From assembly GCF_008000935.1 (NCBI RefSeq), contig NZ_CP042831.1, forward strand, positions 2,728,001 to 2,792,000: a stretch of 64,000 nt of DNA, given 5' to 3'. The notes under the pieces were generated by a model, which had not been told where the DNA came from, made no database searches, and saw nothing but the letters and a program-made list of their open reading frames with translations. Positions 41,552-46,157 of the stretch are shown piece after piece. The DNA is from Flavobacterium alkalisoli. GTDB taxonomy: Bacteria > Bacteroidota > Bacteroidia > Flavobacteriales > Flavobacteriaceae. The position numbers and the translations under genes were made by a program. Positions within the stretch are counted from its first letter, which is position 1; the number at the start of each line of letters is the position of its first letter.

Positions 41552-44500
41552 TTGCTAATCCCTTCCAAACGCAAAATTAAAACAAATAGCAGTATCAAAA
41601 AATTTAAAAAAATACTTATTCGTACTCTGATAGGAATTATCCTGTTTTTGCTGCTGCTAGCCATTGCACTATCACTTCCTTTTGTGCAAACACAAATAGG
41701 TAAAATAGCAACAAATAAACTTAACGAAGAGTTTGGTACACATATAACTATAGATAAGGTTGCGGTTACTGTTTTTGGTAGTGTAAAGCTTAAAGGGGTA
41801 CTTATTTTAGACCATCATAACGACACACTGGCTTATGCCACAAGACTGCAAACCAACCTGCTTAGCTTTAGAAATATTGCCGACAGCCGACTTGAGTTTG
41901 GTAAAATAAAGGCAGATAACCTTAACGTACACATGAAAACCTACAAGGGGGAAGACAGTTCCAGCCTTGATGTTTTTGTAAAATCTTTTGACAACGGTAA
42001 GCCGGGTTCAGGTAAATTCAGGATGCTGGCAAGTAATATTACGGTTGTAGACGGAAGGTTCAGGCTTACAAACGAAAATACCACGACACCTAAAGCACTT
42101 GATTTTAAAAAACTAAACGGAAGCCTTAATGATTTTTTTATTAAGGGAAGCGATATTAGTGCCGATATAAAGAAACTTTCATTTTTAGACCACAGGGGGC
42201 TAACGGTTAAAAACCTAAAAGGTGAATTCTCTTATTCTAAAACCAATATTAAGTTAGAACAGATGGAACTGGTAACGGCAGAGTCGGCCCTAAAGGGAAG
42301 CGTTGTACTTACCTACACTAGGGAAAAGATGAGGGATTTCCTTAATCAGGTAGCATTTGATTTTAAAGTAGAGAGGGCGTATGTGTCTTCAAACGAACTA
42401 AATTATTTTTATGATGAGTTTGGTGAGAATCAAAAGTTCTATTTGTCTACAACCTTAAAAGGCCCGCTTAATAACTTTGTATTATACGACCTTAAGCTAC
42501 TTGATGCCCAACAATCAGAAATTATAGGTAATGTAAACTTCAGGAACCTTTTTGATAAAACAGGTCCGGGCTTTTACATGAATGGTGATTTTGACAGGAT
42601 TACTTCAAACTACCTTCACCTTAGGGATATAATGCCAAGAATACTGGGTAAGAGTTTACCTCCGGTACTGGAAAATTTGGGTATGGTAAACCTTAACGGT
42701 AATGTGGTACTTACCAGAACCGATCTTACTACTAACATTAGTATGATTTCGGAACTTGGTGCGGCACAAACCAATCTTGCTATTAAAGACTTTAATAAAC
42801 CTGATATTGCTTCGTATACCGGTGTTATAGACCTTGATAAACTTAATCTTGGTAAGCTATTTAACCAAAACGGACTGCAAAGTACAACCGCTCACCTTGA
42901 AGTAGAGGGTAGGGGCTTTAATAAGCAATCGCTTAATACCATTGTAAAAGGGGATATTGCCCAAATGGTATTTAACGGTTACAATTACAAAAAGATAGAT
43001 ATAGACGGCCGTATGAAGTGGCCTTACTTTAAGGGGATTGTAAACAGCAACGATCCTAACCTGCTTATGTCGTTTAACGGTTTGGTAGACATGAGTAAGA
43101 AGAAGAAGGAATATGACTTCCATGCTATTGTTGATTATGCCGACCTTGCAGTACTTAACATAATAAAGAATGATACCCTTTCTATATTTAAAGGAGACTT
43201 TACCTTTAAGGCAACAGGAAATGATTTAGATGACCTTGCAGGTAATCTAGATGTTACTCAGCTGTCTTACCAAAACAGCAGGGGAGATTACTATTTTGAA
43301 GATTTTAGGGTAGAATCCTTATTTGATGAACAGGGGGTAAGAACGGTAAGTATTAACTCTCCTGATATTATAGAAGGAAGAATAAGAGGTAAGTTCTATA
43401 CGAAAGAAATTCCGGATTTGGTAGAGAATGCTTTGGGTAGTTTATATGCGAACTATTCGCCAAATAAGATTAAACCGGGTCAGTTTGTAACCTTTAATTT
43501 TAATATTTATAACAAGGTTATAGGTATATTCCTTCCGGATGTTACCATAAGTAAGGACACTCACATACGCGGTAGGATAAATGGCGATGAAGGAATCTTT
43601 AAGCTCGATTTTGATTCACCTAATATCATAGCCTATAAAAACGAGTTTAATAACATCAGTCTTGAAGTAGATAATAAAAACCCTCTTTATAATGCCTATA
43701 TTCAGGTAGACAGTATGAGGGTTAAGAAATATAAGGTCTCTGACTTTAACCTTATCAACGTAACCCAAAACGATACACTTTATGTAAGAACAGAGTTTAA
43801 GGGAGGTAATAAGAAGCAGGACTTTTTTAACCTTAACTTATACCATACTATAGATGAACAAAATCGTTCGGTAGTCGGGTTAAAGAAATCAGAGGTTAAC
43901 TTTAAGGAATACCTTTGGTTCCTTAATGAAGACGATTCCCGAGACAATAAGATTGTATTTAATAAAAAGCTTACCGATTTTACTATAGATAAGATAGCAC
44001 TATCACATAAAGACCAGCGTGTTGAACTAAATGGAGTATTAAAAGACTCTACCTATAAGGATATAAACCTTAGCTTTAAAGATGTAGACCTGCATAAGGT
44101 TACACCAAGTCTCGACAGTCTTGATTTTGGCGGAAGGCTTAACGGAAAAGTAAGTCTTAAACAGCAAAGACAGGTGTATGAGCCTTCTGCCGATATATTT
44201 GTAGATAGCCTTTCCTTAAATAAACACAGGTTGGGAGACCTTAGCCTGGAAGTTTCGGGAGATGAAGATCTTAGAAACTTTAAGGTAAACACCTCTATTG
44301 TTAAAGATTACAAAGAGACTTTCTTTACCATTGGTACGTTGCAGGTAGTAGACAGGCAAACCTATATGGATCTAGATGCCGTATTCTCAGGCTTTGAACT
44401 CAGTCCGTTGGAAACATTCCTAAAATCGGTCTTTCCTGAAATACGAGGACAGGCATCAGGTAGGGCAACGGTTATAGGTCCAGCCAGAGCCCCTAAAATT

Positions 44501-45445
44501 GATGGTAGGCTATATGTGAGGGATGGAGGAGTAAAAGTAGGTTATCTAAATACCGATTATGATTTTGAACAGGATGCTACTATTGATATAACCGAAGAGA
44601 AGCTCATCTTTAGAGATATGGTACTTACTGATACTAAGTACAAAACAAACGGTATGCTTAGTGGTCATATAGATCATCATTATTTTAAAGACTGGAGGCT
44701 ATCTTTAGCTATAGAGTCTCAAAATATGTTGGTTCTTGATACCGAAGAGACCGATGAGTCACTGTTTTACGGTACAGCATTTATTGGCGGCAGGGCAGCC
44801 ATAAGTGGTCCTACTTCTGCCTTACTGATTACTGCTAATGCAACCTCTAAAAAAGGTACTGTAATTAAAATTCCTATAAGCAATGCGGCAACTGCCGAGG
44901 GCAACAATTCTTATATACATTATATAAGTCCGGAAGAGAAGGCAAATCTTGCGGCAACAGGAATTTTGCCTAAAACATTTAATGGTATTGAAATGGAGTT
45001 TGATTTTGATGTTACTCCAGATGCTACGATTGATATTATTATAGATAAAGATACCGGTCATAGTTTATCGGCACAGGGGTATGGTACATTATTGCTTAAT
45101 ATAAATACCCTTGGTAAGTTTAATATGAACGGGGATTTCTCATTAACAAAAGGGGTATATAACTTTAAGTACGGAGGTCTTTTAGATAAGAAGTTTACGG
45201 CTAAACCAGGTGGTACCATTGTATGGGACGGTGACCCTACAAGGGCACGTATTAACATAGAAGCTATTTATAAAACGTATGCAAACCCTTCTGTACTGTT
45301 AGAAAACCCTGCGTTTAACAGGAACATTCAGGTTGAGGTGGTAACATTGCTTACAGGTAATATAATGAGCTTTGAGCCGGAGTTTAATATTAACTTTCCC
45401 AACCGTAAGTTCGGTAATGAAGGCCGATTTAGATTACAGGCTTAG
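41552..45445 (+). CDS. tamB: TamB-family translocation and assembly module protein, N-terminal portion (frame breaks near 45404)
   Basis: This is a long AsmA/TamB-type protein of the inner membrane and periplasm involved in outer-membrane lipid or protein traffic. The start is TTG at 41552: an in-frame stop lies directly upstream and no ATG occurs before the membrane anchor (about residues 25-48). Repetitive beta-rich modules follow (about 60-1280). The reading frame runs to 45445, but after PEFNINFPN (aac, 45401-45403) it reads a non-conserved tail RKFGNEG.... The natural continuation (VSSVMKADLDYRLSDP) lies in the +1 frame from 45405, so the last 14 residues are spurious. Family identity is secure from length and the C-terminal DUF490 sequence. 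Confidence 0.88.
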   Translation: MLIPSKRKIKTNSSIKKFKKILIRTLIGIILFLLLLAIALSLPFVQTQIGKIATNKLNEEFGTHITIDKVAVTVFGSVKLKGVLILDHHNDTLAYATRLQTNLLSFRNIADSRLEFGKIKADNLNVHMKTYKGEDSSSLDVFVKSFDNGKPGSGKFRMLASNITVVDGRFRLTNENTTTPKALDFKKLNGSLNDFFIKGSDISADIKKLSFLDHRGLTVKNLKGEFSYSKTNIKLEQMELVTAESALKGSVVLTYTREKMRDFLNQVAFDFKVERAYVSSNELNYFYDEFGENQKFYLSTTLKGPLNNFVLYDLKLLDAQQSEIIGNVNFRNLFDKTGPGFYMNGDFDRITSNYLHLRDIMPRILGKSLPPVLENLGMVNLNGNVVLTRTDLTTNISMISELGAAQTNLAIKDFNKPDIASYTGVIDLDKLNLGKLFNQNGLQSTTAHLEVEGRGFNKQSLNTIVKGDIAQMVFNGYNYKKIDIDGRMKWPYFKGIVNSNDPNLLMSFNGLVDMSKKKKEYDFHAIVDYADLAVLNIIKNDTLSIFKGDFTFKATGNDLDDLAGNLDVTQLSYQNSRGDYYFEDFRVESLFDEQGVRTVSINSPDIIEGRIRGKFYTKEIPDLVENALGSLYANYSPNKIKPGQFVTFNFNIYNKVIGIFLPDVTISKDTHIRGRINGDEGIFKLDFDSPNIIAYKNEFNNISLEVDNKNPLYNAYIQVDSMRVKKYKVSDFNLINVTQNDTLYVRTEFKGGNKKQDFFNLNLYHTIDEQNRSVVGLKKSEVNFKEYLWFLNEDDSRDNKIVFNKKLTDFTIDKIALSHKDQRVELNGVLKDSTYKDINLSFKDVDLHKVTPSLDSLDFGGRLNGKVSLKQQRQVYEPSADIFVDSLSLNKHRLGDLSLEVSGDEDLRNFKVNTSIVKDYKETFFTIGTLQVVDRQTYMDLDAVFSGFELSPLETFLKSVFPEIRGQASGRATVIGPARAPKIDGRLYVRDGGVKVGYLNTDYDFEQDATIDITEEKLIFRDMVLTDTKYKTNGMLSGHIDHHYFKDWRLSLAIESQNMLVLDTEETDESLFYGTAFIGGRAAISGPTSALLITANATSKKGTVIKIPISNAATAEGNNSYIHYISPEEKANLAATGILPKTFNGIEMEFDFDVTPDATIDIIIDKDTGHSLSAQGYGTLLLNINTLGKFNMNGDFSLTKGVYNFKYGGLLDKKFTAKPGGTIVWDGDPTRARINIEAIYKTYANPSVLLENPAFNRNIQVEVVTLLTGNIMSFEPEFNINFPNRKFGNEGRFRLQA

Positions 45446-46100
45446 TGATCCTAACAACAGGAAGAATCAGGCATTGGGATTACTGGCAACAGGCAGCTTT
45501 ATAAGCCCTACGAGTGTAAACACTTATGGTGCATTTTTTGAAAGGGCGAGTAGTGTTGTTAATAGTTGGCTTTCTGATGATGATGGTAAGCTTAATATAG
45601 GTTTAAACTATGTTAATGGCGTAAGGGATCCTTATGCTGAAACTAACTCAAGTATAGGTTTAACACTTAATACCCAAATTAATGACAGGATTACTGTAAA
45701 CGGACAGCTTGGGGTACCTGTAGGCGGAGTTAATGAATCTGTTATTGCGGGTAATGTGGAAATGCAGCTTCGTTTAAATGATGATGGAAGCCTTAAGGCA
45801 CGTGTGTTTAATAGGGAAAACGACATTAACTTCCTTGGGGAGGGTATAGGTTATACACAGGGTGTAGGATTAACTTATTCGGTAGGATTCAATACTTTAA
45901 GGGAACTTTATACCAAGGTGTTTTCTGCTAAAGCAGAAAAAGATAAAAATAAGAACAGCACTAATGACATACCTGATTCAGACTTCTCTGAAGAATACAT
46001 AAAGTTTATGGAGGATAAGAATAAGAAAAAAACAAATAATGAGGATGAGGAGCCTGATAAGGTACCTGACCCCTATGATATGCAAGATTCTACACCATAA
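45405..46100 (+). pseudogene. tamB: C-terminal part of the frame-broken TamB
   Basis: The +1 frame from 45405 reads VSSVMKADLDYRLSDPNNRKNQALGLLATGSFIS, which continues the TamB/DUF490 C-terminal domain missing from the upstream frame. It ends at 46100 in an acidic Lys/Asn/Glu-rich tail (AKAEKDKNKN...PYDMQDSTP). Skipping one C at 45404 (or 45403) would join both parts into one protein of about 1,515 residues. Either a one-base insertion broke the gene or the sequence carries an error. Confidence 0.8.
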
Positions 46101-46114
46101 ATTTCATTATTCAT

Positions 46115-46157
46115 AAAAAGCGGATGATTTTTAAAGATTATCCGCTTTTTTATTTTT
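46115..46157 (+). terminator. Terminator of tamB
   Basis: The stem AAAAAGCGGAT/ATCCGCTTTTT has a 14-nt loop and is followed by TATTTTTC. Confidence 0.8.

Follow-up and report, generated by a model that had tools for sequence, protein, structure and literature searches.

A frame break near the end of tamB in Flavobacterium alkalisoli, probably an assembly error

The tamB locus

The window analysed here is a stretch of 64,000 nucleotides (positions 2728001-2792000) from the genome of Flavobacterium alkalisoli, which is assembled as one contig of 3.99 Mb and rated 99.8% complete. It contains tamB in two frames (Table 1). The upstream frame, ORF1, encodes 1297 aa and is called from a TTG codon; it closes with a 14-residue out-of-frame tail, NRKFGNEGRFRLQA, and a stop codon at 45443-45445. 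From 45405 the +1 frame reads VSSVMKADLDYRLSDP, and it is open as far as the stop codon at 46098-46100. Both frames pass the curated Pfam cut-off for TamB (PF04357, 381 positions; cut-off 22.4 bits). ORF1 matches profile positions 4-245 with 141.8 bits, and the second frame matches positions 240-381 with 50.6 bits. The profile is thus shared out between the two frames, which points to one TamB domain cut in two and not to a chance overlap. A single frame with both the body and the C-terminal domain is absent from the window but is found in Flavobacterium beibuense RSKm HC5, the closest relative identified (93.9% DNA identity over 12.7 kb), in which tamB is a single intact frame of 1483 aa. The break falls at residue 1250 in RSKm HC5 numbering and leaves about 233 residues (16%) out of frame. 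The initial annotation had named the gene tamB, noted a frame break near its end and assigned the TamB C-terminal domain to the +1 frame as far as 46100; the Pfam matches and the positions of the two stop codons confirm this.

Alignment to RSKm HC5 places the one-base difference in a T/C run, where the window is the longer of the two. This is a few bases upstream of the C at 45403 or 45404 which had initially been suspected. Relatives have either FPT or FPN at the junction, so the joined peptide proposed in the annotation is possible but is not the sole candidate. A hairpin resembling an intrinsic terminator lies beyond the downstream part; both tamB parts may therefore share one transcription unit.

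Table 1. Features of the tamB region (positions in the window)
Feature	Position	Strand	Evidence
tamB upstream part (ORF1), TamB body and 14-residue out-of-frame tail	41552..45445	+	RSKm HC5 residues 1-1251 of 1483, 98% identity
T/C run, one base longer than in the 94%-identical relative (frame break)	45395..45400	+	L005 alignment; junctions of 80 relatives
tamB downstream part, +1 frame: end of the Pfam TamB domain, then charged tail	45405..46100	+	RSKm HC5 residues 1248-1483, 98% identity
Intrinsic-terminator-like hairpin, 3' of the downstream part	46115..46150	+	pattern match only

Comparison with relatives

Relatives of the downstream part were collected, and the best 80 of 186 confirmed were fetched. 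Nearly all are labelled as Flavobacterium, Myroides, Paenimyroides or other Flavobacteriaceae/Bacteroidia; one is a bin labelled Rhizobium. An alignment of homologues around the junction had been suggested in the initial annotation as a check. When it was run, the junction proved to be continuous in 80 of these 80 relatives. At least 1200 open codons precede the junction in 76 of them, and the other four run off a contig end.

In a survey of the genus, the C-terminal part was matched in 199 of 199 genomes, among them that of the window. Frame lengths were counted by hand in 150 of the 199 rows, comprising the window's genome and 149 others. An open tamB frame of at least 1400 aa is present in 139 of these 149. 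Seven of the ten shorter frames reach a contig end (G195, G048, G071, G100, G014, G130 and G023); the remaining three (G148, G050 and G095) were checked for a break at the window's site, and none has one there. G050 and G095 each have one frame across the junction in the alignment. In G148 the frame of tamB changes several times; of these changes, the one closest to the window's site lies about 55-60 residues upstream of it. This copy (L235, G148:C27) belongs to a fragmented genome, and its frame changes probably reflect poor assembly. G044, which is outside the 150 rows, gave a weak match (E 5.5e-4).

From these comparisons the frame break is, as far as these sequences were searched, private to the window's genome. 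A protein search (7989 candidates scored) found no same-species copy among the best 120 of 642 matches listed; the best among the matches listed is an F. beibuense protein of 1483 aa (98%). A complete-genome paper on a near relative was also sought and is absent among the matches listed.

Selection on the downstream part

The downstream part of tamB differs from that of RSKm HC5 by 56 synonymous and four nonsynonymous changes over 229 codons (dN/dS 0.013). The upstream part differs by 252 synonymous and 29 nonsynonymous changes over 1265 codons (dN/dS 0.025). Against two more distant relatives, dN/dS is higher in the downstream part (0.15, versus 0.08 upstream); this is ascribed to the domain itself rather than to the break, because the downstream protein is almost identical in RSKm HC5, where the gene is intact. 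Relaxed constraint past the break, as in a pseudogene, is not seen against RSKm HC5, although a very recent break would leave no such sign. The lack of decay implies that the break is not really there, is bypassed, or arose very recently. Had the downstream part drifted neutrally since the break, a rough Poisson bound would limit the break to at most about 3-5% of the lineage's branch after its divergence from RSKm HC5. An old pseudogene is rejected on these grounds.

Other frame breaks in the assembly

Two regions of the window's genome (340 kb and 400 kb) were compared with RSKm HC5 contigs C7 and C1 on the basis of ORFs called mechanically with a minimum length of 100 aa. There are 222 and 274 matched RSKm HC5 ORFs (496 in all), of which 217 and 270 are full length in the window's genome. 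Four of the 496 are broken there by small indels: tamB and, by their Pfam names, glutamate dehydrogenase, an outer-membrane efflux protein and a short-chain dehydrogenase. In the reverse direction (222 + 276 = 498 ORFs), one split and three partial matches were flagged, with no one-base gene break among those inspected; the lone split is a short ORF with ends that differ in both genomes. The 4-to-0 asymmetry is weak taken alone, since a one-sided sign test gives only 0.06. One of the four, the short-chain dehydrogenase, appeared in the survey as a partial match and was included after inspection of its alignment, because this has a one-base difference; leaving it out gives 3 to 0. The excess of small frame-breaking indels fits residual assembly indels, but is suggestive only.

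The three other genes are located outside the window. Glutamate dehydrogenase (G000:C1:2668606-2668633, at the start of L138) has its frame broken by two small indels, an additional G and, about 30 bases away, the loss of 2 bases. On either side of this break the matched parts show 100% identity with RSKm HC5; for a protein that is otherwise invariant, two indels so close together look like a consensus error. The outer-membrane efflux protein gene (G000:C1 about 1940825) and the short-chain dehydrogenase gene (G000:C1 about 1790305, near the gene end) each have a single additional base compared with RSKm HC5.

The end of kB_79, a gene encoding 582 aa in RSKm HC5 which we take to be arylsulfatase-like, is deleted in the window's genome (about 1.4 kb; G000:C1 about 2595100-2596200, outside the window). 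The deletion is large, so this gene was not counted as a small-indel break. It looks like a real loss, and the genome thus seems to carry true gene losses.

Several other candidates were set aside. Among possible small-indel breaks, kB_18 is a 346-aa ORF split only upstream of its probable true start; kB2_264/kG2_237 is a short membrane-protein gene with ends that differ both ways; and kB2_307/kG2_278, presumably histidine-tRNA ligase, is a partial match in both directions. Among possible one-base breaks, kB_25 matches three nearby copies and is repeat-like, kG_231 has a gap-free alignment with its ORF end beyond the matched stretch, and kG_320 has a larger local difference.

TamB and TamB2

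An important gene of the bacterial envelope, tamB has been studied in F. johnsoniae. According to that study (PMC12045153), no deletion of tamB (Fjoh_4592) could be obtained; tamB2 could be deleted. Residues 1321-1420 of F. johnsoniae TamB are described there as a pseudosubstrate domain, and AlphaFold Multimer predicts that this domain docks on the last TamL strand (PMC12045153). Like Fjoh_4592, the gene in the window encodes a variable tail after the Pfam TamB C-terminus. The sizes also agree: the window-type tamB has about 1500 codons in the majority of the genus genomes listed, and residues up to 1494 are named for Fjoh_4592 (PMC12045153). As with TamB2/TamL2 of F. johnsoniae (PMC12045153), a further TamB, longer than the first, is encoded near an Omp85-family gene in the window's genome. 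At this locus (G000:C1:2841395-2848664, minus strand, outside the window), the paralogue (TamB2) is an open frame of 1703 aa, and the nearby Omp85-family gene is open over 811 aa. By length, domain and the presence of a separate TamB2, the window's tamB is a probable orthologue of Fjoh_4592. Unlike in F. johnsoniae TamB, the frame in the window is broken ahead of the C-terminal domain. By position and length, and by analogy with the domain limits given in PMC12045153, the out-of-frame part should include the pseudosubstrate domain predicted to dock on TamL.

Origin of the frame break

The frame break is probably a sequencing or assembly error. The tamB gene itself would then be ordinary and probably intact in the living bacterium, and its frame would be split on paper by a single surplus base that the deposited assembly has in a short T/C run. 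Long homopolymers are the most usual place of sequencing errors; the T/C run in tamB is short and holds no long homopolymer, which counts against an error. So do the seemingly real arylsulfatase-like loss in this genome and the fact that essentiality was shown in another species, F. johnsoniae (PMC12045153). An error is nevertheless favoured because all 80 fetched relatives are in frame, the downstream part is constrained, similar breaks occur in the assembly and the F. johnsoniae gene could not be deleted (PMC12045153). Gene-fragmenting errors do occur in long-read assemblies (Kastor paper, PMC12007338); the case here is like those errors in that conserved genes are interrupted by isolated small indels which close relatives lack. 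By analogy with F. johnsoniae (PMC12045153), the intact protein would be an inner-membrane-anchored TamB which spans the periplasm, with its C-terminal pseudosubstrate domain docked on TamL. The initial annotation had offered truncation, a sequencing indel and a programmed shift as options; the comparative evidence puts an indel error first and a very recent mutation second, and leaves a programmed shift unsupported. A caution follows for users of such assemblies: a one-contig genome rated 99.8% complete can still present conserved genes, such as tamB and glutamate dehydrogenase, as broken.

A real and very recent one-base insertion, truncating TamB ahead of the pseudosubstrate domain and creating a fresh pseudogene, perhaps in culture, is rather doubtful. 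The break is present in the sequence as given, TamB2, with an open Omp85-family gene nearby, might give partial cover, and the arylsulfatase-like loss in the same genome looks real. However, the downstream part is without decay, which under neutrality confines such a mutation to the small fraction of the branch roughly bounded above; tamB could not be removed from F. johnsoniae, a species with TamB2 as well (PMC12045153); and the same sort of break is found in glutamate dehydrogenase. A real extra base is unlikely, whether the strain then manages with a TamB devoid of the C-terminal docking domain or obtains complete TamB through spontaneous +1 slippage, despite the essentiality reported for F. 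johnsoniae. A genuine break would offer a natural test of the need for this domain in a setting where tamB is thought to be essential. Slippage deserves separate mention: ribosomes might slip +1 at the T/C run and yield full-length TamB from a real extra base, either as an incidental rescue or as a programmed +1 shift. ORF1 and the +1 frame overlap from 45372 at the latest, a CCC codon is present within the run (45398-45400), and RNA beyond the site folds slightly better than shuffled sequences (z -1.95; 10 of 200 shuffles were equally good). That fold score is unremarkable, however, and neither a stop codon nor a known slippery motif is seen at the site by eye, in agreement with the initial annotation, which had seen no clear slippery signal. 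The shift is shared by none of the 80 fetched relatives (best 80 of 186); there is therefore no conserved frameshift programme among them, a conserved programmed shift is rejected, and slippage of any kind is very improbable. TamB is unnamed among the matches listed in a literature search for TamB with frameshifting. Hardly credible at all is a split gene, in which the downstream part would be translated on its own and would function as a second polypeptide. Translation could restart at an in-frame ATG at 45417, 26 bases upstream of the ORF1 stop codon, but the fragment would begin within the Pfam TamB domain and has no signal peptide by eye, whereas the periplasm is the presumed site of action of the TamB C-terminus; none of the 80 fetched relatives is split at this site.

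A weak terminator-like pattern (5 pairs) lies directly 3' of the frame break, at window positions 45411-45427; it is most likely due to chance.
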